A DNA stretch of 37,644 nucleotides, taken from positions 1 to 37,644 of the forward strand of contig JAJYIT010000042.1 of assembly GCA_021789975.1 (NCBI GenBank). The letters are read 5' to 3'. Below are positions 7,670 through 37,509 of this stretch, piece after piece; positions within the stretch are counted from its first letter, which is position 1, and each line of letters begins with the position of its first letter. The notes under the pieces were generated by a model, which saw nothing but the letters and a program-made list of their open reading frames with translations, made no database searches and was not told where the DNA came from. The position numbers and the translations under genes were made by a program. The stretch comes from Bacteroidota bacterium (GTDB lineage: Bacteria; Bacteroidota; Ignavibacteria; Kryptoniales; JAKASW01).

Positions 7670-7762
7670 TTCAGGAATCCTTTCGAAACATGATCTCCGA
7701 CCGACATAGGACTCGGACGTGATCACAGCCTGAGCCCTATATAATTGGGAAAACCGATGGAG

Positions 7763-11891: not shown

Positions 11892-13292
11892 CTAATGCTT
11901 TTTCTTTTCAGGCGGAATATAGGGCAATGCTTGGGTGCCTCGCGGGCCAAGAGGAGCGGGACGCGGCAGCGTTACGGACGGAGGATATGTTAGGTGCACT
12001 GGATCTAGCTTAGAATGCAAGGTGTCAGGAACTGGAATAACCAATGGAGCATTTGGAGTCTGACTGAAGTCAAAGCAATCGGCCATGTCATTCGCACGTC
12101 CATCACGGGGTGTCAATGACTTTATATTCCACCTCACTTCTACAAATTTCAGCACTGAAGTAAGATCGTACGTATAATGGGACACATAATTGTGTTTCGC
12201 ATATGGTGAAATGACAATCATTGGAACACGTGGGCCGTAACCGTAAGCATCGACCTCTGGCGGCGGCACATGATCGTAAAAACCGCCGTAATCATCCCAA
12301 CACAGAAAAATGACAGCATTCTTCCAGTAGGGACTCTGCATCACAGCGTTGATTAATCGTGTCACATACCACATCCCTTGTTGCAAGGGCTCCGGCGGAT
12401 GTTCACTATCTTGAAAATCAGGAATGAGCCATGACACCTGCGGTAATGTACCATCTTTCAAATCACGATAGAACTCAGATTGTTCTACGAGATGGCCCAT
12501 CATTTTGGGATTGTCGCGGATCTCCTTGAATCCGGGCATCGGATTCCAAATAGTGAATGTATGGGGATTGGGGTAAGCAAGATTCGACGTATGAGCATTT
12601 ATCCTTGCCGCGTCCGGAGGTGAAGGTTGAGTCTCGACATAATACTTCCATGTTATCCCCTTACCCGAAAATCTGTGGACGATCGAAATGAAGCTGAAGC
12701 CGTCATCGTCGTCCATGACCCTTTTCAGTGCCTGGAGGGTGCCGACATTGTTAAGTTCACCCGATTGCGCAGCCACGGTGAAGACGTGATTAGGGGAGCT
12801 ACCCGTCATCTCTGACGAGAAAAAACGGTCGCATAACGTAAAAGCGTGAGCATATTCCCAGTAGTTCGGGATGTCACTCTCGTCATAGAACCCCATCGTG
12901 TAGGGACTTCCTTCGGCCCATACGAAACCGTCCATCCTACCGTTATCGTAGCAAGCGTGTGCCTGTTCCCAGCTATGGTCCAGGTCAATAAGTGGTTGGC
13001 GGTAAGGCATGTGGAAAGGCTTGACGGACGGCCTTCCACCGGGCATCTTCGGCAAACAAGTGGCAGGAGGTATACCATCTGCCCCAGGAAATGTGCCAAA
13101 GTAATTATCGAAGGAGTGGTTCTCCTGGATGATCCAGATTACGTGCTCAATCTTGTCAATTCCAGGATCTCTTCCCGTCTTGCTTTGATCTGACTTTGAC
13201 GGGTGCGCGCAAGAGGATCCAACGAACGCAATTATTGTCAGAACAAACGCAATGATCATTGAACGAATATACCACTTTATTGGTACTATCAT
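11892..13292 (-). CDS. Phospholipase C/acid phosphatase family phosphoesterase, lipoprotein (A)
   Basis: This 466-residue protein belongs to the phosphoesterase family (Pfam PF04185) that contains bacterial phospholipases C, plant non-specific phospholipases C and AcpA acid phosphatases. The N-terminus is a lipoprotein signal ending in IIAFVGSSC (Cys28). Family motifs are [19 protein letters not shown] (Glu57), GSSPNHVF and [14 protein letters not shown] with the metal-binding DD pair. It ends with a Pro/Lys-rich stretch. AAGGAGAG lies about 10 nt upstream of the ATG. A paralogue sits two genes upstream, with one T9SS protein between them. Whether it cleaves a phosphodiester or a phosphomonoester cannot be decided from sequence; the DD form resembles AcpA-type members. 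Confidence 0.82.
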
Positions 13293-13357: not shown

Positions 13358-14920
13358 TCACCGCAAGAGGAGCATCTTGCGTGTTGAGTTGAAGCCTCCC
13401 GTGCTCAGAACATAGAAATATACTCCGGTTGCAAGACTGCCTGCATCAAAGGTAGCTCGGTAAAAGCCTGGTCCCACCTGTTCATTGACAAGTGTGGCAA
13501 TGTCCTCACCGAGTATGTTGAAGACCTTCAGGGTTACCACTTCTGCTTTCGGAATATTATACTCGATTACAGTAGACGGATTAAAAGGATTTGGATAGTT
13601 TTGACAGAGAGCGAACTTATCGGGTATCTCATTCGATTGTTCAACAATTCCGAGTAATCCAGTACCTGTCGTGAACGAATCAACAGACGAGTAAGGGCTG
13701 GTGAAGGCGCTGTTGGATGCAGCGACACGCCAGTAATACTTAGTGGACGCAGCAAGTGGTGTCGATAATCGCAAACTCGTGTCAGGCACTGTAGTATCCG
13801 CCGCAACTTTCGAGAAAGCAGTATCATCGGCGACTTGCAAATGATACTCTGTCGCTCCTGGTGTCGGGTTCCATGACATGGTCACGTCTCGGGGAACGGC
13901 AGAGTACCTGCCGAGAGAAAGGAGTGCTGGTACTGCAAGTGGACCATACCTCACACCGATAGAGTCGAAAAACTGCTGCGTCATTGGTTCTTGTGCCGCA
14001 CCTCCCCAAATTAGTAGGTATCTAATCCCCTTCAGTTCCGTCACCTCTGCACAGTCATACGCATTCTGTGCAGTTGTCCCGTTTCCGCCAGAACCGAGAC
14101 TCACTTGAGGAATGAAATCAGTCCCGCCGTTGAACTGAGCGATAAGGGTGTCGAGTGCATTCGTATATCCTGTGGTAGTTCCGGACCTTGCTGAGGCCTG
14201 CGTTTGGACATTGAGCACGTCCACCTGCTTGAAGATGTCGTAATAGTTCCATTTCTGACCCTCCTTGGACAACATAGAATTGCTAAGTAGTGGTCGCGAG
14301 GTGGGAGAAGTCATGAGCGGCTTCCCATACTTGTCCGCTATCTGTTTTGCCGAATCCATAATCATCAAGGTTGTGTCGAAGTTCCACGTATACTCGGGTT
14401 CGAAATTCGGCTCATAGTCGTAATTCAGCCATGCAACATCAGCGTTTAACAAACTATCGCTTGCAATTGCCGCTCGCAATGAATCTAAGGTTGTCAACCC
14501 TGCGACGCCGGCAATTATATCGTTATCGGGAAACGCTTGTCGCAGTTGCGCAACGACATTGTGGAGATTTGGAATTTGGCCAGTACCTTGTCCGACACTG
14601 ATATAAAACTTGTCTTTGGGACTCATGTACTGACTGTTTGCCGCAAAGAAGTTGACCATCTTGGGCACCGAGCTGTAGATGGTCCACACATAGTTGAGAG
14701 AATCCAAATTGTAAGTTCCTTGGGGAGGTTTTCCGATTTCATGAGGATAAGACGACGCAAATTTGCCGGGCACAGTCGCACGGCTTTTTATGTCATTACC
14801 ACCCTGTTCCTGAGCCAGCAGCCTTTGGCTCTCGAAAATCACCAGCGAAAAGAGCGGGACTACTATAATAATGCCACGAATCTTGTGGAGAAGCAGGTGT
14901 ACCATTTTGTTCGATTTCAT
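13358..14920 (-). CDS. T9SS-exported putative TIM-barrel protein of unknown family
   Basis: This 520-residue protein has an N-terminal signal segment (IRGIIIVVPLFSLVIFESQRLLA), an unassigned domain of about 300 residues, an Fn3-like domain (about 345-420) and a T9SS sorting tail (QNYPNPFNPST to KMLLLR). The unassigned domain alternates strand and helix patterns as a beta/alpha barrel would. It carries VAWLNYDYEPN near 162-172, which recalls the DxDxE strand of GH18-like barrels with Asn in the first position. FYISVGQGTG, PLMTSPTSRPL and LNVQTQ are other candidate strand ends. I do not recognise the family. A GAGGGAAT sequence lies in the 10-nt gap after the upstream phosphoesterase gene, indicating tight co-expression with it. 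Confidence 0.75.
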   Translation of the reverse strand: MKSNKMVHLLLHKIRGIIIVVPLFSLVIFESQRLLAQEQGGNDIKSRATVPGKFASSYPHEIGKPPQGTYNLDSLNYVWTIYSSVPKMVNFFAANSQYMSPKDKFYISVGQGTGQIPNLHNVVAQLRQAFPDNDIIAGVAGLTTLDSLRAAIASDSLLNADVAWLNYDYEPNFEPEYTWNFDTTLMIMDSAKQIADKYGKPLMTSPTSRPLLSNSMLSKEGQKWNYYDIFKQVDVLNVQTQASARSGTTTGYTNALDTLIAQFNGGTDFIPQVSLGSGGNGTTAQNAYDCAEVTELKGIRYLLIWGGAAQEPMTQQFFDSIGVRYGPLAVPALLSLGRYSAVPRDVTMSWNPTPGATEYHLQVADDTAFSKVAADTTVPDTSLRLSTPLAASTKYYWRVAASNSAFTSPYSSVDSFTTGTGLLGIVEQSNEIPDKFALCQNYPNPFNPSTVIEYNIPKAEVVTLKVFNILGEDIATLVNEQVGPGFYRATFDAGSLATGVYFYVLSTGGFNSTRKMLLLR

Positions 14921-14930
14921 ATTCCCTCAT

Positions 14931-16364
14931 TTAGTTTCCATAATGTTTTCCAGGATAAGGCTGGAGAATCAACGGGGGTCTTGGAGGCTGCGAGAAGTCG
15001 AAGTCTTTCACGAGATTTCCGAGGAGCGGTTCATCTTCGCGCACATCCGGCCGCGAGTCGGGCCGCCCGTCAGTTTTCGGATTGAGTCTCTGTCCGCTTA
15101 AGAAATCATCTTCGATGAACTTCAGATACGCATCAAAGCTGAGAATCCGGTGATCGATGTACCCCTTCCTTGCATACGGGCTTATGACGATTCCCGGAAC
15201 ACGGAGCCCGTAACCAAGTGAATCGACATGCGGCGGGACAACGTTATCATAAAAACCACCGAAGTCATCCCATGATAGGAAGATCGCCGTGCTAATCCAA
15301 TCCGGACTTCTCATAACCGCATTTATGATTCGAGTGACGTAGGCCTGGCCCACACTTACCCGTGCAGTGGGGTGTTCACTATCACGGCCGTTGGGGATCA
15401 TCCAACATACAGATGGCAGGGATCCAGACTTAGCCGCTCTGAAAAATTCATCAATTGTTTGAATGTTCTTAATCTGCTTGTCCTGATGGACATCTGTAAA
15501 TCCTGGAAGGACATTCCAAATCTGATCGACCCGAAGCCACAAGGGATTCATTGTCGAGCTCTTCGGTACAAAATTGGCTGAATCCACTTTTGCACCCTCG
15601 TCCAGATAACAAGCCCAAGAGACACCCGCCTTGTGCAAAAGGTAAGTAATATCAGTCCATGCAAATGGGGTAGGGCACCTCTTATTCCGATACCTCGGTT
15701 CGAACGTACCCACGCACGACATCGGATCTCCCGGTGTCTTCGTTATCGCACTCCACGCAGATACCATAAACAGATGAGAGGGGTAACTCCATGACTCTAT
15801 AGGTTCGAACATGTGATCCTGGAGGACGAAATCTTTGGCGTAAGTCCAGTAATTCGGTATTTCGCGCTGGTCGTGGTAGCCCATAACATCGATGTATGCG
15901 TAGGTCAGGTTCGGGTCATAGAATTTCCACTTCTTCCTGCGTAGCATTCCTCTGCGCGGTTTACCGAGCGCCTCTTTGATGAAGCCATCCATTTTCCCCC
16001 GATCTATATCGGCTATCTGGTCAGCATTGTTATGCGGTCCCCCATAATTAACGTCGCTCGTATCGTGGTACGGACGCGCCATCTTCCCAGTCTTCGGATC
16101 GGGTACAGCCACTGTTGGGATTCCATTTCTCATAGGAATTCCGTCCGCGCCGGGGAACGTTCCGAAGTAACTATCGAACGACCTGTTCTCTTGCATAATT
16201 ATCACAACATGTTTGATCTTGTGAATCCCTTTAAGGGATACTGCGGAGCCTCCATACTTGTTAAGAACAGGTCGAACTTTTCCGAAAGTGTACCGGTTCG
16301 CGCAAAAGAACATCCACAAAGCTACCGGAAGGATTATCGTTAGTTTTGGAGGTCTAATCTTCAT
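14931..16364 (-). CDS. Phospholipase C/acid phosphatase family phosphoesterase (B)
   Basis: This is the second member of the same phosphoesterase family, 477 residues from the preferred start. Motifs are [20 protein letters not shown] (Glu59), [11 protein letters not shown] and [15 protein letters not shown], and [12 protein letters not shown] is also typical. The N-terminus ([19 protein letters not shown]) is a signal or anchor segment without a convincing lipobox, unlike copy A. A Lys/Arg-rich insert ([15 protein letters not shown]) and a longer central region distinguish it from A, so this is an old duplication. The start at 16364 has GGAG 8 nt upstream; the frame opens at 16379, three bases after the GH2 stop, so translation is probably coupled to the GH2 gene. 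Confidence 0.82.
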
Positions 16365-16382
16365 TTTCGATATCTCCATATT

Positions 16383-24873: not shown

Positions 24874-24895
24874 AAAAAGTGTGGGCTCACTTTTT
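24874..24895 (-). terminator. Weak hairpin overlapping the aldolase stop codon
   Basis: AAAAAGTG at 24874-24881 is complementary to CACTTTTT at 24888-24895 with a 6-nt loop. In the transcript the 5' arm includes the end of the aldolase coding sequence and its UGA; the 3' arm ends in UUUUU. The stem is A/U-rich, so termination would be partial at best. It would separate the intracellular catabolic genes from the receptor/enzyme block. Confidence 0.4.
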
Positions 24896-25924
24896 GAAAC
24901 TTGAGAAGAACCCTACGCCGTCGTCTCTTTTCTCAACGATGTACTCTATCGCCTGATCTACCGAATATCCTTCATGAATTATCTTGGACAGCGACATCGC
25001 TATTGCTCGCGGATCGTCATCCTGAACAAAGGTCACGTTCCGGCCCACCATCGCGCCGCGAACGTTTGGAGCAGACTTCATTCCGTGCGCGAACGATTTT
25101 ATCGTGTCTACCGGCGATTCTTTAGCCGGACCACCGAGAAGGAGTATAGGAAGTGTAGTCGATCTGGCAACACGCTCGAAATCCTCGTTGTAGGAAAGCT
25201 TCAGCCAAGTGTATAGCGAAGTCTCGCCAAGTGCTGCCGCCGCACCAGCGTCCCGCACAAGCGGCTCAAGATCCGTCCTGAACGCGTAAGCCTTCTCTCT
25301 CCCCTCAACCGTGGCTGGCTCTATGAATGCATACAACCCAAGCCGGCTCAGCTCGGTTATAGCATTCGCGCATTCTCGTATGGTTATCAGTGAGCCGTGA
25401 TCCGACGGTTCCAACCTGTACAGCATCTTCCCCCCGTCCAGATTCATCCTCTTCAGGCTTTGCGCCGTGTAAGAGGTAAATGCATCTTCCATTTCGTGAA
25501 TTGAACCGGCATGTCCACCGCGGTTCATACATCCTATAATTACCTTTTCGTCGAGGAAACTTTTGCCTGTCTTCTCCTTGTAAAGGTAATCAACTATCAG
25601 AATGTCTTCGATCATATCGGTCGTTGCCATGACTCCGTCGAATTCTTCATCGGTAATCACCCGCAAGACGCGACCGAGATACTCATACCTGTCTCCCATG
25701 CCGATTGGATCATTTCGCAGAGCAGTCACTCTTCTTCCTGGATGATCCGCCGCGAGTATTATAAGCTTGCCGTCTCTGGTAAGTTTAGTCCTCCGCTTTC
25801 TTTCTTCAATATGCTTTATGACTTTGTCCCTATGATCAACTCTTGCTTCTGTGATCTTATGAAACAAACTCTTCGGGAAAAAATCCTCCAGCCTGAACTG
25901 ATAATCGGTCGGTTCTTGACCCAT
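24887..25924 (-). CDS. Class I aldolase of the DhnA/LacD/Cgl0159-like (beta/alpha)8 family
   Basis: This cytoplasmic protein of 345 residues resembles the aldolase family that includes LacD, DhnA-type fructose-bisphosphate aldolases and the corynebacterial Cgl0159 protein of an inositol catabolic cluster. Characteristic segments are GKLIILAADHPGRR, DGVMATTDMIEDI, MNRGGHAG and ILLLGGPAKE. The expected reaction is retro-aldol cleavage of a ketose phosphate to a triose phosphate and an aldehyde, which the upstream aldehyde dehydrogenase could oxidise. I cannot assign the Schiff-base lysine with certainty. The start at 25924 (MGQEPTDYQF) has TAGGA at 6 nt; the open frame from 25981 begins only with TTG. 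It lies about 100 nt after galM. Confidence 0.7.
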   Translation of the reverse strand: MGQEPTDYQFRLEDFFPKSLFHKITEARVDHRDKVIKHIEERKRRTKLTRDGKLIILAADHPGRRVTALRNDPIGMGDRYEYLGRVLRVITDEEFDGVMATTDMIEDILIVDYLYKEKTGKSFLDEKVIIGCMNRGGHAGSIHEMEDAFTSYTAQSLKRMNLDGGKMLYRLEPSDHGSLITIRECANAITELSRLGLYAFIEPATVEGREKAYAFRTDLEPLVRDAGAAAALGETSLYTWLKLSYNEDFERVARSTTLPILLLGGPAKESPVDTIKSFAHGMKSAPNVRGAMVGRNVTFVQDDDPRAIAMSLSKIIHEGYSVDQAIEYIVEKRDDGVGFFSSFKK

Positions 25925-26028
25925 ATTATTCCTACGATTTGGTCTTTTCTCTTTTGTTGTGCTTTTCACAAACGATTCCAATCTCTTCGTCTCCTCGGCC
26001 GGCCTTGTAGGTCGTTGACTATCATCTT

Positions 26029-27072
26029 TTAATCCACCCCAAACTGGTAGATTGTTGTTCGCTTGTACGCCTGCCCAGGCCGAAGTACGACCGATGGGAA
26101 CAATTTCACGTTAGGTGCATTCGGGAAATCCTGGCATTCCAGGCATAAACCAGACCTAGGTCGTATCGGGATACCGCCCTTGCCGACCACCTTACCGTCC
26201 AGATAATTTCCGGAATACAGCTGAACCCCGGGTTGATCAGTCAACACTTCCAGGAGCCTGCCTGTGGACGGCTCGTATAGTCTGGCTGCTTGGCGAACGT
26301 TCCCGGTAAAATCATTCAACACAAAGTTCTGATCATAGCCATTTGCCAATTTCAGCTGTTCATAAGAATCGTTTATCCGATCGCCGACAGCCGTGGATTT
26401 CCTGAAGTCCAGCGGCGTATTGGCAACGTTTCTAATTTCACCGGTAGGGACAGACAAATCATCAGTAGGGGTAAAACAGTTCGAATTAATAGCGAGAAAA
26501 TGGTCCAGAATTGTATTCGCCGGCGAACCAGTCAGGTTGAAGTAACCATGGTTGGTCAAATTGACGATTGTCGGCTTGTCAGTCGTAGCTGTGTATTTCA
26601 TCTTGAACTGATTGTCTTTCGTCAACGAATACAATACCTTTACCTGCATGGTCCCAGGGAATCCCTCATCGCCGTCTGGACTGAAGAGAGTAAACTCGAC
26701 CGACGCGTCATCATTCTGATTTACGATGCGTGATTTCCAATAATGCTTATCAAATCCGACTGTACCACCATGCAAATGGTTCCCTTTGCTATTGACCGTC
26801 ACCTGATATTCTTTTCCGTCGATAACGAACTTTCCGTATCTAATCCTATTTGCAAAACGTCCTACGGTAGCCCCCAGATAGAATCTTCCGCCGACATAGT
26901 TACAAAGATCGGCGTGACCAAGCGTCACGTCTGCAGACTTGCCGTCCCGGTCAGGGACTTCAATCCCGGCAATTGCAGCACCGTAGTTAACCAGCGTCAC
27001 CTTCATCATCTTGTCGTTAGTCAGAACAAAAGACTCAAGATTATTTCCGAGTTTCTCGGTGCTTACATTCAT
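26029..27072 (-). CDS. galM: Aldose 1-epimerase (galactose mutarotase)
   Basis: This 347-residue protein interconverts alpha and beta anomers of aldoses such as glucose or galactose. Conserved GalM segments are GATVGRFANRI, NHLHGG, NLTNHGYFNL with the catalytic base-partner His175, NGYDQNF, and LECQDFPNAPN with catalytic Glu312. The usual form of the last motif is LETQxxPDSPN, so this copy is only slightly diverged. There is no signal peptide, so it is cytoplasmic. GGGAG lies 6 nt before the ATG. It sits between kinase and aldolase genes. Retaining and inverting exo-glycosidases release particular anomers, and a mutarotase would feed the isomerase. Confidence 0.9.
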   Translation of the reverse strand: MNVSTEKLGNNLESFVLTNDKMMKVTLVNYGAAIAGIEVPDRDGKSADVTLGHADLCNYVGGRFYLGATVGRFANRIRYGKFVIDGKEYQVTVNSKGNHLHGGTVGFDKHYWKSRIVNQNDDASVEFTLFSPDGDEGFPGTMQVKVLYSLTKDNQFKMKYTATTDKPTIVNLTNHGYFNLTGSPANTILDHFLAINSNCFTPTDDLSVPTGEIRNVANTPLDFRKSTAVGDRINDSYEQLKLANGYDQNFVLNDFTGNVRQAARLYEPSTGRLLEVLTDQPGVQLYSGNYLDGKVVGKGGIPIRPRSGLCLECQDFPNAPNVKLFPSVVLRPGQAYKRTTIYQFGVD

Positions 27073-27163
27073 CTTTTCTCCCGAACCAAACGAATAAACC
27101 TCCCCGCTGCAAGCGGCTGGGAATTCAACCCTGAGTGATTATAGATTGGCCGCTGCCTCTGGG

Positions 27164-28414
27164 TCATACATTAACGCTTTTATGGCGGACCGCCCCCGGA
27201 GCTATGACAACTCTTTTTGTAAGCTTATGGCCCACAAGTCCAGGAAACGAGCGGACAGGTCCGCCAATAATAGGACGGCAGTAATCTATGAACTTCTCCG
27301 TGACGTAATTACCTCTGGCGTTCACGAACTCCGCCGGAAGAAGTTTTTCCGCTATAGCAACATTCTGCAGCGGAACGCTGCCGACATGACAGTGATACTT
27401 CTTTCCCTTTGACCTATCGAGCGTCATCATTACACCGCTTTTCCCATCAAGTGCATACCATACTGCATTCTTACCGACTAGATGTGCTTCCTCCTGATCG
27501 ACAGTGGACACATATTCAATTCCGGTTCGTGCCGCCAGACCGGGTTTCTCACTTCTCGCTCTTAACTTTAACTCTTCGGCGATCTTCGCCGACAAAAATG
27601 CCGCCGCACCGCCGGGCAAACCTCTTCCGAATCCGTCGCGGGAGGCGTCCGCTCTCACCCCTCCGAGATAGTTTCCCTTCTCGTCCTTGAGACCTTCGCT
27701 CACCACTATCACCGCGCGACCGTATTTCCTGTATACCTCTTCGACATCAGTCAAGAATTCTTCCAAGCTGAAAGGTCTTTCAGGTACGTAAATCAGGTTT
27801 GGAGCATCGCCCTTCTTTTCCTCGGCAAGCGCTGCGGAAGCGGCAAGCCATCCTGTATTCCGGCCGAGGGTCTCAATGATTGAAATGGGCGGCGGAAGCG
27901 ATTCGACATCAAGTCCAATCTCTCTTGTCACACTCGCAAAGTATCGGGCAGCGCTGCCGAAACCTGGGCAATGATCGGTATAAGCAAGGTCATTATCTAC
28001 TGTCTTGGGAATTCCTATTGCCATCAACTCATAGCCGGCATTCTGCGCCACTTCGCTTACCTTGTGAGCCGTATGCATCGAGCCGTTGCCTCCAATGTAG
28101 AAGAAATATCTTATGTCATATTTCTGCAGAGTTTCGAGTATGAGTCCGTAATCCTCTTCCTTCATGGTACGGCGACATGAACCCAGTGCGGCACTCGGCT
28201 TATTAAAAACCTGTTTTAGTGTGGAGGGAGTCTCTCTTCCGAGATCTACGAGATCTTCATCGATCATTCCGTTGACACCATGACGAGCGCCGATGATCTT
28301 TCCAATTGTTCCCGATTTTGCGCGCTTTGCTTCTTCGATCACGCCGACCAGACTGCAGTTTATCACCGCGGTCGGTCCTCCACCCTGGGCCACGAGCAAA
28401 TTGCCGCCGGACAT
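27164..28414 (-). CDS. 6-phosphofructokinase-like kinase (PfkA superfamily, PPi-type subgroup)
   Basis: This 416-residue protein of the PfkA superfamily phosphorylates a ketose phosphate, typically fructose 6-phosphate at C1. Recognisable motifs are VAQGGGPTAVIN, FFYIGGNGSMHTA, IGIPKTVDNDL and IETLGRNTGWLAA. Lys137 in PKTVDND is the residue seen in pyrophosphate-dependent enzymes, where ATP enzymes have Gly. The GGNDS of close PPi-type relatives is here GGNGS (Gly111), as in ATP enzymes, so donor specificity is ambiguous. It is cytoplasmic, with AAAGGA about 11 nt upstream. It lies between the isomerase and mutarotase genes and could serve glycolysis or a dedicated pathway such as a ketose other than fructose. 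Confidence 0.85.
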   Translation of the reverse strand: MSGGNLLVAQGGGPTAVINCSLVGVIEEAKRAKSGTIGKIIGARHGVNGMIDEDLVDLGRETPSTLKQVFNKPSAALGSCRRTMKEEDYGLILETLQKYDIRYFFYIGGNGSMHTAHKVSEVAQNAGYELMAIGIPKTVDNDLAYTDHCPGFGSAARYFASVTREIGLDVESLPPPISIIETLGRNTGWLAASAALAEEKKGDAPNLIYVPERPFSLEEFLTDVEEVYRKYGRAVIVVSEGLKDEKGNYLGGVRADASRDGFGRGLPGGAAAFLSAKIAEELKLRARSEKPGLAARTGIEYVSTVDQEEAHLVGKNAVWYALDGKSGVMMTLDRSKGKKYHCHVGSVPLQNVAIAEKLLPAEFVNARGNYVTEKFIDYCRPIIGGPVRSFPGLVGHKLTKRVVIAPGAVRHKSVNV

Positions 28415-28470
28415 CTTAAAGAATTCCTTTCTTCAATTGAGCAATAGATCCAATCACTACAGTCGATGGC

Positions 28471-29904
28471 TTAGCGCGGAACCGCAGAAGACATTGGCTC
28501 CGGCTTTTGCAGATAATCTTTGTACTTCACTGGATTCATCATGCTTATTCCGAGCCACGCGCAGAGCTCATTCACTTCCGTCGTAATGTCCTTATCGACA
28601 TAAGCAAGATGGTGCGGCACAGCGTTTACCAGAAGCGTGTTCATATAATCTTGACTCGATGTCGGCTGGCCGTTTATTCTCAAGTCGTTCATCCAGGAGC
28701 TGCATCCTTTGAAGATGGGCGACTCTCTCTCATAAAACTTCCCATTAGCCAAAAATGCACTGCCATCGTTCTCCATGAATCTTAGTGCTGTAAGTTCAGT
28801 GGGCTTCATCTTCCCTTCTCGCACCGTTCCCATCTTGTCGCGGTTGAAATGATTTGCGAGCCTGAATCCCGATTTGTCAAACCAGCTCTTCGGTATGTTC
28901 CCGCAGTGCCAAATATAGATTGAGTCGCTCTTCTGGTCCCAAGCGGACAAATCCATGAGTACCGTCTCGCGTCCGCTAAGGTATTTCAGAGCCATCATCG
29001 ATATCGCTCCAAGTACATCTGTCTCTGTAGCCGCGACGGTGTTGTGATCTTGCTGGTTAAGCCTGCCGATTGTCGAGCAAACCATAAGTCCTATTTTGCC
29101 AGGAACCTCTGGCCAACATCTGAAACTGACTGCCGATGCATTATGCCTCGCGATAATCTTTTCGAACGCCGCTTCGGCGCCAGCCGATTTCCTTACATCA
29201 GGCTCTGAAGTGTCGACACCACTGCTTTCTTCTATTATGTCGGCCACCTTATTTCCCAATGATCCGTTTCTCATCACTGCTTCATACTCGCCGTAGAACT
29301 CGTCCAACTCAAGCTTTTCGACCCTCACTCCAAAAATCTTCCCGAGCTTCTCCGCGTCGTATTTCAAATCATGATAGCCGAACTCGGTGTCGCCGATTTG
29401 AAGTATCTTAGCATCCCTCAGCTTCTTAATCGCCGCGAGTGCTTTGACCGTCACGTCGAACCGCCTGCCGAACTGTGCAGACTCCGCATCTCCAAATAGC
29501 CACTTGACAGGTTTATCGTAGCCAGGTGCATATCTGCCAGCTATGCTGACATATAGGTTCGTGGCACAGAAGGAATTCAGTGGGAGTGGTCCACTCGACG
29601 TCGTCTCTTCCACAGCCCAAACGGCAAGCCGCGCAGACGATTTGAAGAATGGGAGTATCATGTCACCATCGGCAAAGGAGGAGTTCTGTATCACGACGAA
29701 GTCCACCTTTTTATCTTCCAGTTCTTGTGCGACCGACTGTGCGTCGGCTAGCGTCTCCATTCCTTTGTGTACCGGAATAAAGTCAAATCCCAATTCTGCA
29801 CTTTTCTTTTCTATAACTTTTATGCTACGATTCAACACCGATCTCATATCTCCCTTGAAGATCGGTCTGAATGTGCCCGCCAGCGCTACTTTGAGCTGTT
29901 CCAT
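28471..29904 (-). CDS. L-fucose/L-arabinose isomerase-like protein
   Basis: This 477-residue cytoplasmic protein resembles the L-fucose isomerase family, which converts aldoses to ketoses with a bound divalent metal. Candidate metal ligands are Glu294 in AATETDVLGA, Asp318 in LMDLSAW and a His in VPHHLAYV (431/432); HCGN at 333-336 is also typical. The N-terminal part (LAGTFRPIF, VDFVVIQNSSFADGD) fits the family's N1 domain. It is diverged from true FucI (about 590 residues), so fucose is not assured: L-fucose, L-arabinose, D-altrose-like sugars or sulfoquinovose are possibilities. AAGGGAAG lies about 9 nt before the ATG. It starts 18 nt after the GH2 gene and 56 nt before the kinase. Confidence 0.72.
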   Translation of the reverse strand: MEQLKVALAGTFRPIFKGDMRSVLNRSIKVIEKKSAELGFDFIPVHKGMETLADAQSVAQELEDKKVDFVVIQNSSFADGDMILPFFKSSARLAVWAVEETTSSGPLPLNSFCATNLYVSIAGRYAPGYDKPVKWLFGDAESAQFGRRFDVTVKALAAIKKLRDAKILQIGDTEFGYHDLKYDAEKLGKIFGVRVEKLELDEFYGEYEAVMRNGSLGNKVADIIEESSGVDTSEPDVRKSAGAEAAFEKIIARHNASAVSFRCWPEVPGKIGLMVCSTIGRLNQQDHNTVAATETDVLGAISMMALKYLSGRETVLMDLSAWDQKSDSIYIWHCGNIPKSWFDKSGFRLANHFNRDKMGTVREGKMKPTELTALRFMENDGSAFLANGKFYERESPIFKGCSSWMNDLRINGQPTSSQDYMNTLLVNAVPHHLAYVDKDITTEVNELCAWLGISMMNPVKYKDYLQKPEPMSSAVPR

Positions 29905-29922
29905 GACCTGCTTCCCTTTCGA

Positions 29923-32355
29923 TTAGATGCTAGCTTTAACCGTTTCCGGTTTTTTCACGTAAATTTGGACAAACTGGCTGCCGAGTGACGAGTGATTCGC
30001 AATTACTTTTATAACGCCACCACTACTTGGGACAGATCTTATCCAGACAGCCGCAGCCCCACCGCTTTCTTTCAAGTCGAACGGGTTGTCACCGACCAGA
30101 ATTCCTGGACCTGTGACCATAAACTTCACTTCGCCGCTTCCGTGCAATCTTTGCTCACGAAATTTGTCTACAACTTTAAAAACAAGCCGGGTTGCATCTG
30201 ATCCGTCTCCAATTATCTCATGATCGTCTGCGTCTATTTCAAATCTATCTGAGGTGACATCCGACGAGTACATTTTCGACAGCATCAGCTTGTTGTTTAC
30301 GTAACCATCAATGCGAAGCTCGGGATGGTTAGAGCCGTCGAGATCAAGATCCGTGAAAAATGGAGGATATTTGATATGCGGATAATCGGATGAGTCAGGA
30401 CGGACAACCGAGTGCTCCCGCCCGTCAATATAAATCTCAAGCCTATCACAGTTGGAAAAGATAGCAACATGCTTACCTGGCCCGTTCTGTGTATTAGATC
30501 CGAAGTCCCAATAAAAATCCGGCAGAATGACTGGCGAGATTTCGGGGCTGACTTGCGACATATAAAAAGAAGCGCCCAGTTTAGGAATACGAAATATGTC
30601 CGCGACACCTGGATATTTCACATTTTTATATGCGTTAACAAGACTTCCATATTCGAACGCGCACCAGGCAATTACCCCACAGATGCGGGGATCAGCTGCC
30701 GCACGACTGTGTGCCTGTGCATGCCAGATCGCCTGCTTTTCCTGGACATCGACGGGACCGGCTCGACGATATTTCGCAGTGAAGCCGGTTTTAGGATCAG
30801 CATAATTAAACTGGCCCACAGCTTCGGTGATCAAATACGGGAACCCTTCGACGGGTTTTTCAATCCCGACCCCGCCTTCAGGGCTGGCGTGATAATCATC
30901 GAACGCAAAGACATCCTCGTGCCATTCAGTCTTCCATGTCTTTCTTGAGCCTGAAGTCATGGTACCTGAACTTGGCCTGGAATCGTCCAGAGACCTTGCC
31001 AACGTTTTTGTTTCTTGGTAAAGGTCAACGTCGTTGGCAGACTCATTTACCCTGGTTCCCCAGATAATGATCGAAGGGTGGTTCCTGTCCCGGATCACCA
31101 TACTACCGACATCCCTAAGTAGTTTCTCCTTCCACGCCGCGTCACCAAGGTACCCCCAGCCCGGCACTTCTTCCCAGATCATAAGCCCGAGCTCATCACA
31201 CGCATCAAGGAAAGCCTCACTCTGGGGGTAGTGAGAACAGCGTACCATGTTGCAATGAAAATCACGATGAAGCAACTCTGCATCATGCCGCATAGTCCGG
31301 GCGGGCATAGCAAAACCGACATAGGGAAACAGCTCGTGGCGGTTGAGACCAAATATCTGAAGGCGCTTCCCGTTCAAGAAAAACCCGTTCAGTTCAAATT
31401 TAGCTTCACGGAGTCCGACTCGTACCGTGTAATCGTGCACGGCCTCTCTGCCTACCAGAAGCGTGACAACAACATCATAGAGATGCGGGGAATCCACATC
31501 CCACAGCTCTACGTCGCCTAGATTGGACAGCACAATTTCATGCTGCGACACGCCGGTCTTTCGAAGGACAACTTTCTCCTCGGTCCTCGTCAAAATTCTT
31601 TCTTTCTCCCGCAGTTCTGCCCTCAGTGTCACTTCTCTTGACATCAGCTTCGCGGCGTCGAGAGTACATAGAATATCTATGCGGCGATTCTGACTAAGGA
31701 CATCAACCGGTTTAGCAAAGACATCGCTGATAAATATCTCGGGCACAACCTTAAGAGTGGCAGAACGGACGATGCCGCCCGGTTCAAGGTAGTCGATTCG
31801 TTTTGGGCCCTCAGATGATCCTTCGGGTGGGACGTTGCTCCAATGTGAATCAACCTTGACCGCAAGTAGGTTGTTGGTCTCGTTTACCAGACCAGTTATT
31901 TCATATTCATAGGGCAGGTATCCGCCGAGATGTTCTGGTAAAGCATGTCCGTTTATCTTCGGTGCGATTCCAACCATGGAGCCGTCGAAGTGAATAAACG
32001 CGCGAGTGCTCTTTAAGTCGCCAGGTAGGTCAAAGTGTTTGCGGTAGACCCAAAGATCCTCCCACTCCGATGGCTGCCAATTTTGCCATGATAGTTTTGC
32101 TACGGTATCAGGAAGTGTGACAGGTACAAAATCATGGTCCACAAAACCAGGTTCCATCGCATCGGCTGTATACTTACCGCCGAAGAGCCAGCCCTTGTCT
32201 AGTGAGAACGTGCGGGCGGCCGGGCCTCTACTTGAGCGGGAGAAAATCGTCGAAAGGCGACGTCGCCCCGCGAGTGATAGCGCTGCCGCTCCGGCTGAGG
32301 CAGTCCCGAAGAGTCTGATGAATTCCCTGCGGGAATATCCGGTAGGTACTTTCAA
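29923..32355 (-). CDS. Tat-exported GH2 beta-galactosidase/beta-glucuronidase-like enzyme
   Basis: This 810-residue GH2 enzyme starts with a twin-arginine signal (YSRREFIRLFG, then a hydrophobic Ala-rich core), so it is folded before export to the periplasm. The sugar-binding jelly roll (about 45-205), Ig-like domain and TIM barrel (about 320-590) are present. The acid/base is Glu438 in IWGTRVNESAND and the nucleophile is Glu511 in YLITEAVGQ. FGLNRHELFPYVG is the GH2 barrel entry. Two C-terminal Ig-like domains follow, to PETVKASI. The start is TTG at 32355, forced by the Tat motif; no strong ribosome binding site is visible. It lies 12 nt after the aldehyde dehydrogenase stop. The substrate may be beta-galactoside or beta-glucuronide. 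Confidence 0.83.
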   Translation of the reverse strand: MKVPTGYSRREFIRLFGTASAGAAALSLAGRRRLSTIFSRSSRGPAARTFSLDKGWLFGGKYTADAMEPGFVDHDFVPVTLPDTVAKLSWQNWQPSEWEDLWVYRKHFDLPGDLKSTRAFIHFDGSMVGIAPKINGHALPEHLGGYLPYEYEITGLVNETNNLLAVKVDSHWSNVPPEGSSEGPKRIDYLEPGGIVRSATLKVVPEIFISDVFAKPVDVLSQNRRIDILCTLDAAKLMSREVTLRAELREKERILTRTEEKVVLRKTGVSQHEIVLSNLGDVELWDVDSPHLYDVVVTLLVGREAVHDYTVRVGLREAKFELNGFFLNGKRLQIFGLNRHELFPYVGFAMPARTMRHDAELLHRDFHCNMVRCSHYPQSEAFLDACDELGLMIWEEVPGWGYLGDAAWKEKLLRDVGSMVIRDRNHPSIIIWGTRVNESANDVDLYQETKTLARSLDDSRPSSGTMTSGSRKTWKTEWHEDVFAFDDYHASPEGGVGIEKPVEGFPYLITEAVGQFNYADPKTGFTAKYRRAGPVDVQEKQAIWHAQAHSRAAADPRICGVIAWCAFEYGSLVNAYKNVKYPGVADIFRIPKLGASFYMSQVSPEISPVILPDFYWDFGSNTQNGPGKHVAIFSNCDRLEIYIDGREHSVVRPDSSDYPHIKYPPFFTDLDLDGSNHPELRIDGYVNNKLMLSKMYSSDVTSDRFEIDADDHEIIGDGSDATRLVFKVVDKFREQRLHGSGEVKFMVTGPGILVGDNPFDLKESGGAAAVWIRSVPSSGGVIKVIANHSSLGSQFVQIYVKKPETVKASI

Positions 32356-32367
32356 AGTTGATCTATC

Positions 32368-33837
32368 TTACAACTTGAATATAACTAATTTGAGTTCGGT
32401 CATTTCTTCAATCGCATACTTCAACCCTTCGCGCCCCATGCCGCTTTCTTTCACTCCGCCGTATGGCATGTGATCGACTCGATAACTCGGAACGTCGTTA
32501 ATCAAGACTGCTCCTGCCTTTATCTCGCGTGCGGCCTTCATCGCCTTGCTGAGATCATTCGTGTAAACGCCGGCATTTATTCCGAATCGAGACGAATTTA
32601 GCAACTTTATTGCATCATCAAACGTGTCATATGGCGTAACTGCCACAAGTGGCCCGAAAACTTCCTCATTGAATACTTTCATATCTGGCTTCACGTCTGT
32701 CAATACCGTCGCTGAAATGGCGTTCCCTTCCCGCTCCCCACCTGTCGTTATCTTCGCGCCGTTCTTCTTCGCCTCATCGATCCACTCAAGTATCCGAGTT
32801 ACGTCCTTGTGAGTAATCAATGCCGAAACATCGGTCGTCTCCTCGAATGGGCTCCCGACTTTCAGTTTCCCTACAGCATTCGTCAGCTTTCTCACGAACT
32901 CTTTCTCAATATTCCTCTGTACCAGTATCCTTTGCGTCGAGATACATACCTGGCCGGAATGTGCATAACCACCCTGGACACATCTCGTCACTGACTCGTC
33001 GAGTCTCGAACCGTCGTCTATTATAACCGCGGAGTTCGAGCCGAGCTCAAACGTGAATCTCTTGAATCCGGCCACGTCCCTTATGTGCCTTCCCACTTCA
33101 GGACTGCCGGTGAACGACACCATGACTACTCTCGGATCCTTTACGAGTTGCTCGCCGACAGCCGAACTTCCTGTCACTACATTCATCACGCCCTTCGGCA
33201 CTCCGGCTTGCTCGAAAAGCTCCGCGAGTTTAAGTGCAATGATCGGTGTCGTTGAGGCGGGTTTTAAAACAACTGTGTTCCCGGCTGCAATTGCCGGTCC
33301 CACCTTGTGTGCAACAAGATTCAATGGAGCATTGAACGGCGAAATAGCCGCAATTACTCCTATCGGCTCACGCACCGTGTATGCTAGCCTGCCTGCTCCC
33401 GCAGCTACAGCATCAAGCGGAACCGTCTCTCCATGTATCCTCTTCGCCTCTTCCGCAGCAAACACAAATGTGTCTGCCGCGCGAGCCACCTCCACCCGCG
33501 ACTCCTTGATAACTTTGCTGTTCTCTGACGTGATCGTTCTCGCAAGCTCTTCGCTGTGCTCCGTCATAAGTTCCGCTATTCTCTTCAGAATCGAATACCG
33601 ATGGAATGCGGTCGTCTGCGAGAAGGTCTCATATGCTTTCGCCGCGGCACCTATTGCTGCATCAACTTGGTCAGGTTCTGCAACCGGAACTCGTCCCACG
33701 AGCGAATCATCGTACGGACTCCTTACTTCAAATGTCTTCGGATTCGTTAACCACTCTCCACCGATATACATACGATAACTTTTGTCCTGAATAACTCGTT
33801 CGGTTTCCCTTTTCAACCCGCCAACTTCATTTGCCAT
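32368..33837 (-). CDS. NAD(P)+-dependent aldehyde dehydrogenase (lactaldehyde/succinate-semialdehyde type)
   Basis: This 489-residue enzyme oxidises an aldehyde to its carboxylic acid in the cytoplasm. The catalytic Cys298 lies in SGQVCISTQR, the general base Glu264 in FELGSNSA and the oxyanion Asn169 in SPFNAPLN; SFTGSPEVG is the cofactor loop. The GGYAHSGQVCISTQR form is seen in lactaldehyde dehydrogenases and non-phosphorylating GAPDH-like enzymes. AAGGAG lies 7 nt before the ATG, inside the last codons of the 2-hydroxyacid dehydrogenase gene, which it overlaps by 11 nt, so translation is coupled. In this cluster the likely substrate is the aldehyde produced by the aldolase. Confidence 0.88.
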   Translation of the reverse strand: MANEVGGLKRETERVIQDKSYRMYIGGEWLTNPKTFEVRSPYDDSLVGRVPVAEPDQVDAAIGAAAKAYETFSQTTAFHRYSILKRIAELMTEHSEELARTITSENSKVIKESRVEVARAADTFVFAAEEAKRIHGETVPLDAVAAGAGRLAYTVREPIGVIAAISPFNAPLNLVAHKVGPAIAAGNTVVLKPASTTPIIALKLAELFEQAGVPKGVMNVVTGSSAVGEQLVKDPRVVMVSFTGSPEVGRHIRDVAGFKRFTFELGSNSAVIIDDGSRLDESVTRCVQGGYAHSGQVCISTQRILVQRNIEKEFVRKLTNAVGKLKVGSPFEETTDVSALITHKDVTRILEWIDEAKKNGAKITTGGEREGNAISATVLTDVKPDMKVFNEEVFGPLVAVTPYDTFDDAIKLLNSSRFGINAGVYTNDLSKAMKAAREIKAGAVLINDVPSYRVDHMPYGGVKESGMGREGLKYAIEEMTELKLVIFKL

Positions 33838-34810
33838 TTCGCACTCCTTCTATCATTGGAAGCGGAAAGTTAACATAATTGACCGCCGGAAGTCCCTGCA
33901 ATACCCTGCTTACATCGCCTGCGACAGAATCGATGACCTTCTCCTGTGCCTCCACTGTCAAACCCGCAATGTGCGGGGTAAGTATTACGTTTTCCATGCC
34001 ATTTAGCTCGGACTCCGCAGGTGGCTCCATCTCACGGACATCCAGTCCTGCTCCCGCAATCACTCCTTCTTTCAATGCCCGGATCAAATCCTTTTCAACT
34101 ATCAATTCGCCTCTACCGGTATTAACAATTATTGCGCCTTTTCTCATCTGTCGAAATCTCGAGTAATCCAAAAATCCTCGCGTCTCCTTTGTTAGTGGAA
34201 GATGGCATGAGATGATATCAGAACTCGACAACACTTCATCGAGGCTCTTTAATTCCGCACCAGATTCGGTAACCAAATATTCATAAGGTGACAGGAATCT
34301 GTCGTATGCAAAAACTCTCATGCCGAATGCCTTTGCTCGGAACGCCAGCCTAGCACCCACCTTGCCAAGACCGAGAACGCCCAGTGTTTTCCCGAACAAC
34401 TCGTTACCTACAAACTTGTACCTGTCCCAACCGCCTTTTGCCGTCGAAAAGTGGCCCGCAGGTATCTTCCTGTACAACGACAGGATCAAAGCGAACGCAT
34501 GTTCCGCAGTCGAGATTGAATTTTCATTCGGTGCATAGCACACAACGATGCCATGTTTGCTTGCAGCATCGACGTCAATGTTGTCATATCCAACCCCGGC
34601 CCGACCGATTACCAAGAGTGAGTGCGCAGATTCAAGGAGTTTACCATCTACTTTAGTCTGGTTCCTCACGATTATGGCTCTTGTCTCGCGCACGCGTTTG
34701 GAAAGAGACTCCCGGTCCTTCCAAAGGGTCTCTTCTTTAACCACTTCGTACCTATGCTCGAGACCTTCGATCGCTCCCCCCGATATGTTCTCTGTAATGA
34801 CAATATCCAT
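33827..34810 (-). CDS. D-isomer-specific 2-hydroxyacid dehydrogenase (SerA/SlcC-like)
   Basis: This 327-residue cytoplasmic NAD-dependent enzyme has the Rossmann motif LGLGKVG (about 146-152) and the catalytic Arg233 (NTGRGE), Glu in LDVREMEP (about 260) and His280 (LTPHIAG). The family interconverts 2-hydroxyacids and 2-oxoacids: phosphoglycerate, glycerate, lactate and sulfolactate are known substrates. It lacks the extra ACT domain of many SerA proteins, which argues against serine synthesis. AAGGTAGG lies 6 nt before the ATG, and the regulator stop is only 11 nt upstream. Paired with the aldehyde dehydrogenase, it could oxidise the acid made from the aldolase product. Confidence 0.85.
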   Translation of the reverse strand: MDIVITENISGGAIEGLEHRYEVVKEETLWKDRESLSKRVRETRAIIVRNQTKVDGKLLESAHSLLVIGRAGVGYDNIDVDAASKHGIVVCYAPNENSISTAEHAFALILSLYRKIPAGHFSTAKGGWDRYKFVGNELFGKTLGVLGLGKVGARLAFRAKAFGMRVFAYDRFLSPYEYLVTESGAELKSLDEVLSSSDIISCHLPLTKETRGFLDYSRFRQMRKGAIIVNTGRGELIVEKDLIRALKEGVIAGAGLDVREMEPPAESELNGMENVILTPHIAGLTVEAQEKVIDSVAGDVSRVLQGLPAVNYVNFPLPMIEGVRNGK

Positions 34811-34821
34811 TTTAACCTACC

Positions 34822-35541
34822 TTATTTTGAAAAAGAGCTTCTTACGAACGTTTCAAATTTTGCATCTAGATCAGATTGCGGCAACAGCAGGTCCTTCGTG
34901 TTGAGTAGATGGGTGTGCATCGCCTCCGCTGCTTTATCCGGATCGTGACTCATCAAGGCGGCAACTAATATTTTGTGCTCGGCGATTGTCGTGTTCATCC
35001 TCCCTGGTTTGTGCCCCGAGATGAATCTGATGCGGTGAATCTGACCAAGGAGGTTATTTAGTATCCTTCGTGCTCGGCTGTTCCCGGCCGCAACCATGAT
35101 AAGGTCATGCAACTTCGTATCGGCATCAAAAGAGGCGATGCTGTCCTGTTTTTCTGCAGCGAGGTCGAGCTGTTTCCCTATTTCCTCTAACTGTTCCTGT
35201 TGCTGTTCAGTAATTTTTGACGCTGCCAATCTAGCGCCGGCCGTTTCGAGACAAATGCGAAGTTCAAGAACCTCCTCGATATCTTTTGGTGTTAATTCTG
35301 AGACATATACACCAATGTTGGGCACGATCCTGACGAGATCTTCCTGCTCGAGACGTCGGAGCATTTCACGAATTGGGGTCCTGCTAATTTCGTATTTCTC
35401 CGCCAGTTCCTCTTCCCGAATTGTCTGTCCTGGTTTGAGATGTTGCGAAAATATGTCGGCCTTAAGTGACTGAAAGATCTTTTCTTTCACCTTGATCCGA
35501 CTGGATGCACCCGCTAATTGTTCTTTCAGATTGGTTTTCAT
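34822..35541 (-). CDS. GntR-family regulator, FadR subfamily with FCD domain
   Basis: This 239-residue regulator has a winged helix-turn-helix at about 18-85 (KPGQTIREEELAEKYEISRT, PIREMLRRLEQEDLV) and an all-helical FCD effector domain. The Asp/His metal-site residues of that domain can be seen in KLHDLIMV, AEHKILVA and MHTHLLNT. FCD regulators bind acids and sugar acids such as lactate, gluconate or uronates, which fits a pathway ending in an acid. It is the first gene of the long minus-strand run and probably controls that run and itself. The ribosome binding site is weak (AAGAGA). Confidence 0.9.
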   Translation of the reverse strand: MKTNLKEQLAGASSRIKVKEKIFQSLKADIFSQHLKPGQTIREEELAEKYEISRTPIREMLRRLEQEDLVRIVPNIGVYVSELTPKDIEEVLELRICLETAGARLAASKITEQQQEQLEEIGKQLDLAAEKQDSIASFDADTKLHDLIMVAAGNSRARRILNNLLGQIHRIRFISGHKPGRMNTTIAEHKILVAALMSHDPDKAAEAMHTHLLNTKDLLLPQSDLDAKFETFVRSSFSK

Positions 35542-37044: not shown

Positions 37045-37509
37045 TCAGGCAGCATAACTAGCCTCGATGCGATTGAGTTTTACGTGATGTAACTTTTGCT
37101 CACGGATATCTATTTTCTCGTCAGCTCTTCCCTTCAAGAAATCTTCAGAGGTCAAATAAAACAGTGCACCATGGAGTCGTTTCGTATTATAGTACTCGGT
37201 GAAGTCTGCAATCTGCTTTCGTGCGTCTTCAAGCTCGATGAGACCTTTCTCTTTCAAGAACTCCTTGCTCAGTATTTCATGGAACCTTTCGATCTTTCCG
37301 TTTGACTGGGGATGAGCAATTGAAGTCCTGATGTGCTGCAGACCCGCCCCATACAGGAGTAGAGCGAAGTCTTTTAAGACGTACTGAGAGCCATTATCGC
37401 TTTCGAGTCTTGGCTTCTCGGCAGGATACTTTTCTAAGGCTCGCTGAAGTGTTATCTCTACATCATGCTCTTCCATCGAAAGTCTTAATTCGTGGCGCAC
37501 TATGAAACG
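37045..37509 (-). pseudogene. IS3-type transposase OrfB, C-terminal part, cut by a second IS
   Basis: This is the C-terminal half of a DDE (rve) integrase: EKPRLESDNGSQYV carries the second catalytic Asp, and HPQSNGKIERFHEIL carries the catalytic Glu about 35 residues later. FTEYYNTKRLHGAL is the usual tail. The frame continues upstream of the GTG at 37500 as RFI (RFIVRHELRLS) and then meets a stop at 37510-37512, exactly where IS-end-like sequence begins. Whole OrfB proteins have about 270-290 residues and the first catalytic Asp is missing, so it is inactive. Confidence 0.75.

Follow-up and report, generated by a model that had tools for sequence, protein, structure and literature searches.

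Introduction

The GH18 chitinases carry the strand-4 motif DxxDxDxE, with the D-x-E pair closing strand 4 and an aromatic residue where strand 8 ends. On strand 6, they have a tyrosine at the place where the family described here has Q-x-Q. The barrel of GH153, found as the C-terminal domain of PgaB, resembles those of GH18, GH20, and GH13 but is without their motifs, and the excerpt of the article used here names D474 as the one probable catalytic residue (PMC5933820). GH31 and GH188 are named as sulfoquinovosidase families in an excerpt of one 2026 paper (PMC13372026). As far as excerpts of two further articles describe them, the sulfo-EMP/EMP2 gene sets comprise a FucI-type isomerase (SqvD), a PF00365 kinase (SqiK), a PF01263 mutarotase, an aldolase, and a sulfolactaldehyde dehydrogenase (PMC9594981, PMC12890257).

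The window, that is, the whole stretch of DNA analysed, is contig G000:C25 at its full length of 37,644 bases. The gene at 13358-14920 encodes an exported T9SS substrate with a predicted (β/α)8 barrel as its working part. We consider it probable that the barrel represents a new TIM-barrel glycoside hydrolase family, with a putative activity, which serves here as an exported accessory enzyme of a glycan-utilisation locus. If right, this would add an uncatalogued glycoside hydrolase family that is patchily spread over archaea and bacteria.

Results

Protein architecture and genomic setting

The minus-strand reading frame is open and starts with ATG (Table 1). The initial annotation had described a T9SS-exported protein, and the C-terminal sorting domain indeed exceeds the type A cut-offs of both Pfam (PF18962, E 5e-7, 30.4 bits vs. 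27) and NCBIfam (TIGR04183, E 7e-10, 38.7 bits vs. 23). The proposed Fn3-like module is present though weak, matching PF00041 at E 5.2e-4 with 20.6 bits and not reaching the 25-bit cut-off. The tail was also said to be shared with GH79 enzymes, and we found it in the proteins encoded at 7763-9445, 5651-7726, and 20053-21774, of which the first matches the GH79 C-terminal domain with 25.4 bits, slightly short of the cut-off of 27. Together, the Fn3-like part and the tail constitute a shared module, whose best matches within the same genome are 45–55% identical; other own-genome matches to the protein begin at residue 296 or later, among the matches listed. The GC content by codon position (0.512/0.430/0.512) is similar to that of the neighbouring genes, so that the composition shows no sign of a recent foreign origin. 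The protein at 5651-7726 is a GH79-like paralog with an Fn3-like module and a T9SS tail, about 42% similar to the GH79-like proteins of relatives, and has no GH79 match of its own in Pfam.

Table 1. Features of the barrel gene, its product, and the adjoining genes in the window.
Feature	Position	Strand	Basis
Exported barrel protein, complete gene, 520 aa	13358..14920	-	ORF reading
Probable Sec signal peptide, hydrophobic N-terminus, residues 1-36	14813..14920	-	Sequence by eye
Predicted TIM-barrel domain, residues 72-326, new family	13943..14707	-	AF2 (pLDDT 86.7, pTM 0.87); relatives
YDYE at the end of strand 4 (residues 167-170), with D168 and E170 as candidate catalytic carboxylates	14411..14422	-	Alignment of 19 members and AF2
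P175-E176, loop after strand 4	14393..14398	-	17/19 and 18/19
W224, strand 5-6 loop region	14249..14251	-	19/19
Q239-T-Q241, end of strand 6 and just after	14198..14206	-	Q239 18/19, Q241 17/19
Q272, within strand 7	14105..14107	-	15/19
W305, end of strand 8	14006..14008	-	W in all 9 rows of the window's clade, an aromatic (F, W, or Y) in the remaining 10
Fn3-like module, about residues 343-418	13667..13894	-	Pfam match below cut-off
T9SS type A sorting domain, residues 441-516	13373..13600	-	Pfam and NCBIfam
PF04185 phosphoesterase, downstream neighbour, 65 bp gap	11892..13292	-	Pfam, E 8.8e-84
PF04185 phosphoesterase, upstream neighbour, 10 bp gap	14931..16379	-	Pfam, E 2.4e-68
Cgl0159-like aldolase, aldose epimerase, PPi-type PFK, SftI/FucI-like isomerase, GH2, aldehyde dehydrogenase, 2-hydroxyacid dehydrogenase, GntR regulator	24887..35541	-	Same directon

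As annotated, the gene sits between two phosphoesterases, both of which belong to PF04185. It is part of a run of 20 minus-strand genes extending from a GntR regulator (34822-35541) to an ORF with the GH92 N-terminal domain (560-1459), in which the gaps measure -11 to 100 bp except for one of 444 bp. Besides this GH92N ORF, the run contains two GH3, two GH79-like, and two GH2 genes and also encodes a TonB receptor and a sugar transporter. Four relatives of the genus carry, at five loci in all, an orthologous phosphoesterase of about 76% identity; one of them (L270) retains the aldolase (78%), the epimerase (64%), and the kinase (72%), and none of the five has the barrel alongside. With related loci lacking it, the barrel appears to be an addition to a conserved locus. 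In G399, the same slot adjoining the orthologous phosphoesterase holds another T9SS protein (L060 10823-12343), which shows propeller-like Pfam traces only and for which BLASTP finds no homology to the barrel protein. In G400, the orthologous phosphoesterase (L063 7307-8704) is broken by one in-frame stop.

Comparison of the middle domain with named families

Residues 40–332 gave nothing usable in Pfam and NCBIfam at E-values up to 10 or in PHROGs at up to 1, and only chance-level matches to PDB sequences. The barrel family is absent from these libraries, which confirms its earlier description as unassigned, and no profile of a non-enzymatic family matched. In Pfam hmmscan at E up to 10, the window domain and 10 family members matched neither GHL10 (PF02638) nor GH18 (PF00704), a search in which HMMER filters may hide very weak matches. 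No catalytic glycoside hydrolase profile was matched by any family member scanned. A GH31 match was absent in Pfam from the window domain, the 10 members, and 21 window proteins, and none to GH188 was seen in the Pfam and NCBIfam scans, which possibly hold no GH188 model. A spherulin-type GH135 barrel, an idea prompted by an excerpt of PMC10640624, was discarded because the members scanned gave no such Pfam match.

Alignment by hhalign gave a probability of 0.6 against the single sequence of E. coli PgaB (residues about 305–672), a single-sequence target with low sensitivity, and of 0.3 against a single ChiA sequence. Against one GHL10 protein the probability was 16.6 (E 0.0015), in register across strands 6–8 and under the usual confidence. 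Membership in GH18, GH153, or GHL10 is thus not shown by these sequence comparisons, and the resemblance to GH18 suggested by the initial annotation did not translate into a match in any profile test.

Distribution of the family

We searched overlapping genome samples of the phylum (395), class (391 and 341), order (20), and family (13). With the single sequence, no convincing relative appeared in the phylum (52 of 395 genomes at E ≤ 1 including the own one, best other 0.0069) or in the class (4 of 391 at E ≤ 0.01, own genome included); the order gave two of 20 genomes at E ≤ 1, namely the own one and another at 0.178, and the own genome was the sole match among the 13 of the family. The 13 genomes all belong to one genus, and since 12 of them are without the barrel, the gene is dispensable to this genus. 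Of the hits in the class, the one that could be named (E 0.005 for one genome) encodes a GHL10 barrel that likewise carries a T9SS tail (PF02638, 4.7e-49). Save for a GHL10 barrel, the ORFs at eight weak-hit loci were judged unrelated by eye. Peptide-word scans with the window domain yielded no match in genome_contigs or viral_contigs, and neither did a scan of viral_contigs with the relative L201 or tblastn of plasmids and phages.

Because single-sequence searches returned no convincing relatives, we scanned genome_contigs at the DNA level for three motifs spaced as in a TIM barrel (YD-x-E; D-x3-[VI]-Q-x-Q; Q-x-[ST]). The pattern occurred in 31 stretches, with the frame open through the match in 16. 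When the whole domain was compared by phmmer, seven of these 16 proved to be relatives (E-values of 2e-27 to 1.9e-6, calculated on this small set, against 0.048 for the next in rank): three from Thermoplasmata, one from a Chloroflexota MAG, one from a ‘bacterium’ MAG, and two from Thaumarchaeota, one of them a Nitrosotalea. The remaining 24 stretches are taken as chance matches. A loose version of the pattern hit at least 120 stretches of viral_contigs, and none of the 120 listed matched the family profile.

Profile searches located 14 places in six of the 10 genomes given, the other four having been included as possible centres. In larger samples, matches came from seven of 151 genomes of one Nitrososphaerota family, seeds included, one of 201 in the phylum of the Chloroflexota seed (the seed), two of 250 in the phylum of G692 (the seed and a weak one), one of 194 in the phylum of G688 (the seed), and solely the own genome among 341 of the window's class. 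The family is rare and patchy, and it is shared by archaea and bacteria. In a maximum-likelihood tree, the window member is a lone branch within a clade that includes Thermoplasmata, Chloroflexota, and the ‘bacterium’ MAG (support 100/100). The other clade is made up of the Nitrososphaerota rows. Two rows have long branches, and inside the window's clade the branching order is tentative. Some members have Fn3 or PKD arrays, and in two Nitrososphaerota members of about 870 and 970 aa (L233 and L263) the barrel is set among Fn3 repeats.

Predicted structure and conserved residues

Without relatives, AF2 returned a model with a pLDDT of 41.3, which we left out of the fold search. With eight natural sequences, the model improved to a pLDDT of 86.7 and a pTM of 0.87, showing eight strands alternating with helices. 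Eight sequences are few for AF2, but the model is confident, and the domain is predicted to be a (β/α)8 TIM barrel. The β/α pattern noted earlier from the letters is thereby borne out by structure prediction, with YDYE following strand 4. Strand 4 covers residues 162–167, hence D168 and E170 are located one and three residues beyond it, so that YDYE would lie at the catalytic end of the TIM barrel. This predicted position argues against burial away from the presumed cleft. In the model, Q239 ends strand 6 with Q241 just after it, Q272 lies within strand 7, and W305 closes strand 8 (residues 301–305). D103 and D234 are found just before strands 2 and 6 on the opposite face and are therefore probably structural.

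The family alignment contains 19 members: the window member, the seven pattern hits, and 11 further rows from profile searches. The divergent hits L231, L235, L237, L260, and L265 509-3553 were left out together with re-fetched duplicates. The other 18 members share 18–30% identity with the window member, and four residues are invariant throughout (D103, D168, E170, and W224). Y167, Y169, E176, D234, and Q239 are kept in 18 of the 19 rows, P175, P206, and Q241 in 17, and Q272 in 15. The pattern hits were chosen for YD.E, D...[VI]Q.Q, and Q.[ST], making the conservation of these motifs in them partly one by construction, and the 11 profile rows carry a milder bias. Position 102 is glycine in 18 rows, the window member with lysine being the sole exception.

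The segment WLNYDYEPN (residues 164–172), to which the initial annotation had drawn attention, is real and not due to chance, with D168 and E170 numbered as claimed and invariant in all rows. The weight given to its asparagine as the first position of a ‘DxDxE’ strand did not hold up, as at position 166 the 18 non-window rows vary among L, Y, I, F, T, G, M, V, and A and show neither Asn nor Asp. Apart from this detail, the initial interpretation stands in outline. In the divergent paralogs L235 and L231 (G688 and G689), which have PKD domains, the YDYE segment reads L-E-I-T by eye, and part of the superfamily may therefore not use the YDYE residues.

A probable glycoside hydrolase and the alternatives

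Among PDB entries, Foldseek placed methylenetetrahydrofolate reductase (MTHFR) first at 1.4e-7, PgaB second at 1.6e-7, and a class III chitinase of plant origin third at 6.9e-7. In VIA-align, the best row was the putative chitinase 4wiw (Z 16.8, 3.6 Å, 235 residues), ahead of PgaB (4p7q, Z 16.3, 238 residues), GH164 (Z 15.6), and MTHFR (Z 15.2), and the best rows were mostly glycoside hydrolases. The viral structure library gave mixed barrels. Because the lead in Z over MTHFR is small, the fold supports a glycosidase without proving it.

We favour a glycoside hydrolase as the most likely role, with E170 as the acid and D168 as its partner. D168, E170, and W224 stay invariant despite the low identity to the window member, Q239, Q241, and W305 are placed at C-terminal strand ends with Q272 within strand 7, and the Fn3/PKD arrays of some members are often seen in extracellular enzymes. 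The role is further favoured by the glycoside hydrolase, TonB receptor, and transporter genes in the run of the window and by the GT2 that adjoins relatives in seven of 21 loci, with an eighth at one gene's distance. Against this role, we count the fold, which does not discriminate (MTHFR comes first in Foldseek), the lack of catalytic glycoside hydrolase matches among the members scanned, the hhalign results for PgaB and ChiA, the L-E-I-T reading of two divergent paralogs, the absence of the gene from 12 of the 13 genomes of the family, and the 13 of 21 loci in which neither GT2 nor UDP-sulfoquinovose synthase was found. Following export by Sec, T9SS would carry the protein across the outer membrane, and the Fn3-like module may serve as a spacer. 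The barrel would hydrolyse a glycan at the cleft made by the C-terminal strand ends, with E170 as the likely general acid. D168 would be the likely partner, either as nucleophile or, in the manner of GH18-like D-x-E enzymes, by orienting E170 and the substrate, and W224, Q239, Q241, Q272, and W305 may line a sugar-binding subsite.

A very divergent member of the GH18/GHL10 group, using the strand-4 D-x-E for substrate-assisted chemistry on N-acetylated sugars, seems unlikely to us. Several likenesses would suit it. The predicted TIM barrel is common to both, though not specific to GH18, and chitinases, which we presume from their titles and from general knowledge to be GH18, are numerous among the top VIA-align rows besides 4wiw. 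As in GH18, a D-x-E pair (D168-x-E170) ends strand 4 and an aromatic residue ends strand 8. With GHL10, the window protein shares a secreted barrel with a T9SS tail and weak in-register similarity over strands 6–8, the T9SS-tailed GHL10 protein being the weak hit at E 0.005. There are also differences. Where GH18 has DxDxE, the window protein reads W-L-N-Y-D-Y-E, and the first Asp is missing in 19 of 19 rows, whereas the D-x-E is kept in all; strand 6 has Q-x-Q; and the new barrel is shorter, with about 255 residues. Pfam holds both GH18 and GHL10, yet neither matched the 10 members, and the hhalign probability for GHL10 stays at 16.6.

A non-catalytic carbohydrate-binding barrel, acting as an exported glycan binder in the manner of chitinase-like lectins, we judge quite improbable. 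CHI3L1 and SI-CLP are among the structural neighbours, and the Fn3-and-tail architecture suits a surface binder too, but the D-x-E carboxylate pair is invariant in 19 of 19 rows across bacteria and archaea. The lectin derivatives of GH18 usually lose the acid.

An enzyme of another class, such as a lyase, an esterase-like enzyme, or a phosphodiesterase acting with the flanking phosphoesterases, would fit generic barrels close in fold (MTHFR, a Kemp eliminase scaffold, aldolases) and the gene's place 10 and 65 bp from two PF04185 genes, but appears the least probable, since the positions conserved in at least 15 of the 19 rows include no His and hence show no metal-binding cluster, and the pairing is not obligatory, with orthologous phosphoesterases lacking the barrel and no PF04185-type phosphoesterase in 21 loci of relatives.

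Gene neighbourhoods of the relatives and a speculative link to sulfoquinovose

We inspected 21 stretches with a member, divergent ones included, and counted neighbouring genes by tblastn. In five Nitrososphaerota loci (L243, L247, L261, L262, and L264), one strand carries, in this order, a UDP-sulfoquinovose synthase, a roughly 680-aa secreted protein, a GT2, and the barrel. The Chloroflexota locus L248 has a homologue of the synthase, an RTX-type repeat protein, and a GT2, with the barrel gene convergent, and in L246 the GT2 alone adjoins the barrel gene. The GT2 thus lies directly beside the barrel in seven of the 21 loci, and in an eighth, from the ‘bacterium’ MAG (L197 349-7384, minus strand), the barrel gene, a 1137-aa gene, and the GT2 succeed each other on one strand, the GT2 lying past one intervening gene. 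Neither GT2 nor synthase was found in 13 of the 21 loci; eight of these 13 are under 10 kb, and absence there says little. Being related by descent, the five Nitrososphaerota operons count as about one event; a second event is the Chloroflexota locus, whose barrel belongs to the other clade.

Against the NCBIfam model of UDP-sulfoquinovose synthase (cut-off 575 bits), L243 and L247 score 612 and 609 bits and L248 scores 493, below it. The four GT2s scanned match PgaC_IcaA best in NCBIfam, with 112–140 bits, far short of the cut-off of 422. The secreted protein of about 680 aa, in its L243 copy, shows weak NPCBM/CARDB-like traces only.

In some archaea, the barrel beside a GT2 with PgaC_IcaA as best, far sub-threshold match recalls the gene order of pgaB and its predicted fold agrees with that of the PgaB C-terminal domain. 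From this gene order, a PgaB-like way of working is plausible by analogy for part of the archaeal setting. In those archaeal and Chloroflexota relatives that have a GT2 alongside, the barrel would trim or release the chain made by the GT2, like PgaB beside PgaC. The new family differs by its two strand-4 carboxylates, as opposed to the D474 named for GH153 in the excerpt of PMC5933820. It also differs in showing no hhalign sequence similarity to E. coli PgaB and no fused deacetylase, and in the UDP-sulfoquinovose synthase adjoining the GT2 in five archaeal and one Chloroflexota loci. The window holds no GT2 of PgaC-like kind; there, a barrel of this kind would have joined a glycan-utilisation locus, in which it would act as an accessory enzyme for degradation.

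A bolder proposal, which we consider rather doubtful, would make the family a new class of hydrolases for sulfoquinovose-containing polysaccharides. In this view, the UDP-sulfoquinovose synthase and PgaC-like GT2 next to some archaeal members and the Chloroflexota member would make a sulfonated exopolysaccharide, which these members would edit. From outside, the window member would attack such a polymer, and the directon would burn the freed sugar by means of an SftI-like isomerase, a PFK-family kinase, a class I-type aldolase, a mutarotase-family protein, and an aldehyde dehydrogenase. In its metabolic part (24887-35541), this directon resembles the published sulfo-EMP/EMP2 gene sets as far as excerpts describe them (PMC9594981, PMC12890257).

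We do not accept the directon as proof of sulfoquinovose catabolism. The isomerase has SftI as its sole NCBIfam match (E 5e-45) with 154 bits against a cut-off of 700, shares 30% identity with a plasmid protein that carries an L-fucose isomerase annotation, and resembles generic FucI-like proteins. The kinase and the epimerase exceed the cut-offs for the ordinary PPi-PFK and galactose-1-epimerase subfamilies. A 6-deoxysugar pathway to lactaldehyde fits the directon equally well as sulfoglycolysis, and the sulfoquinovose link in the window is a lead; a sulfoquinovose-glycan substrate is speculative. Within the papers and terms searched, there was no report tying such a barrel to sulfoquinovose, and the new family has the possible substrate context alone in common with the sulfoquinovosidases of GH31 (YihQ) and GH188. 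If true, the proposal would establish a third sulfoquinovosidase-type family beside these two, aimed at polysaccharide. If the main reading as a glycoside hydrolase is right, the family would supply a candidate enzyme freeing sulfonated sugars from polymers instead of lipids, and some Nitrososphaerota would have an operon resembling a synthase-dependent polysaccharide system with a sulfonated sugar.

Near one end of the contig, the GH92 ORF at 560-1459 has only 299 aa and matches the N-terminal domain alone, and near the other end a fragment of an IS3/IS481-type transposase is located at 37045-37500.
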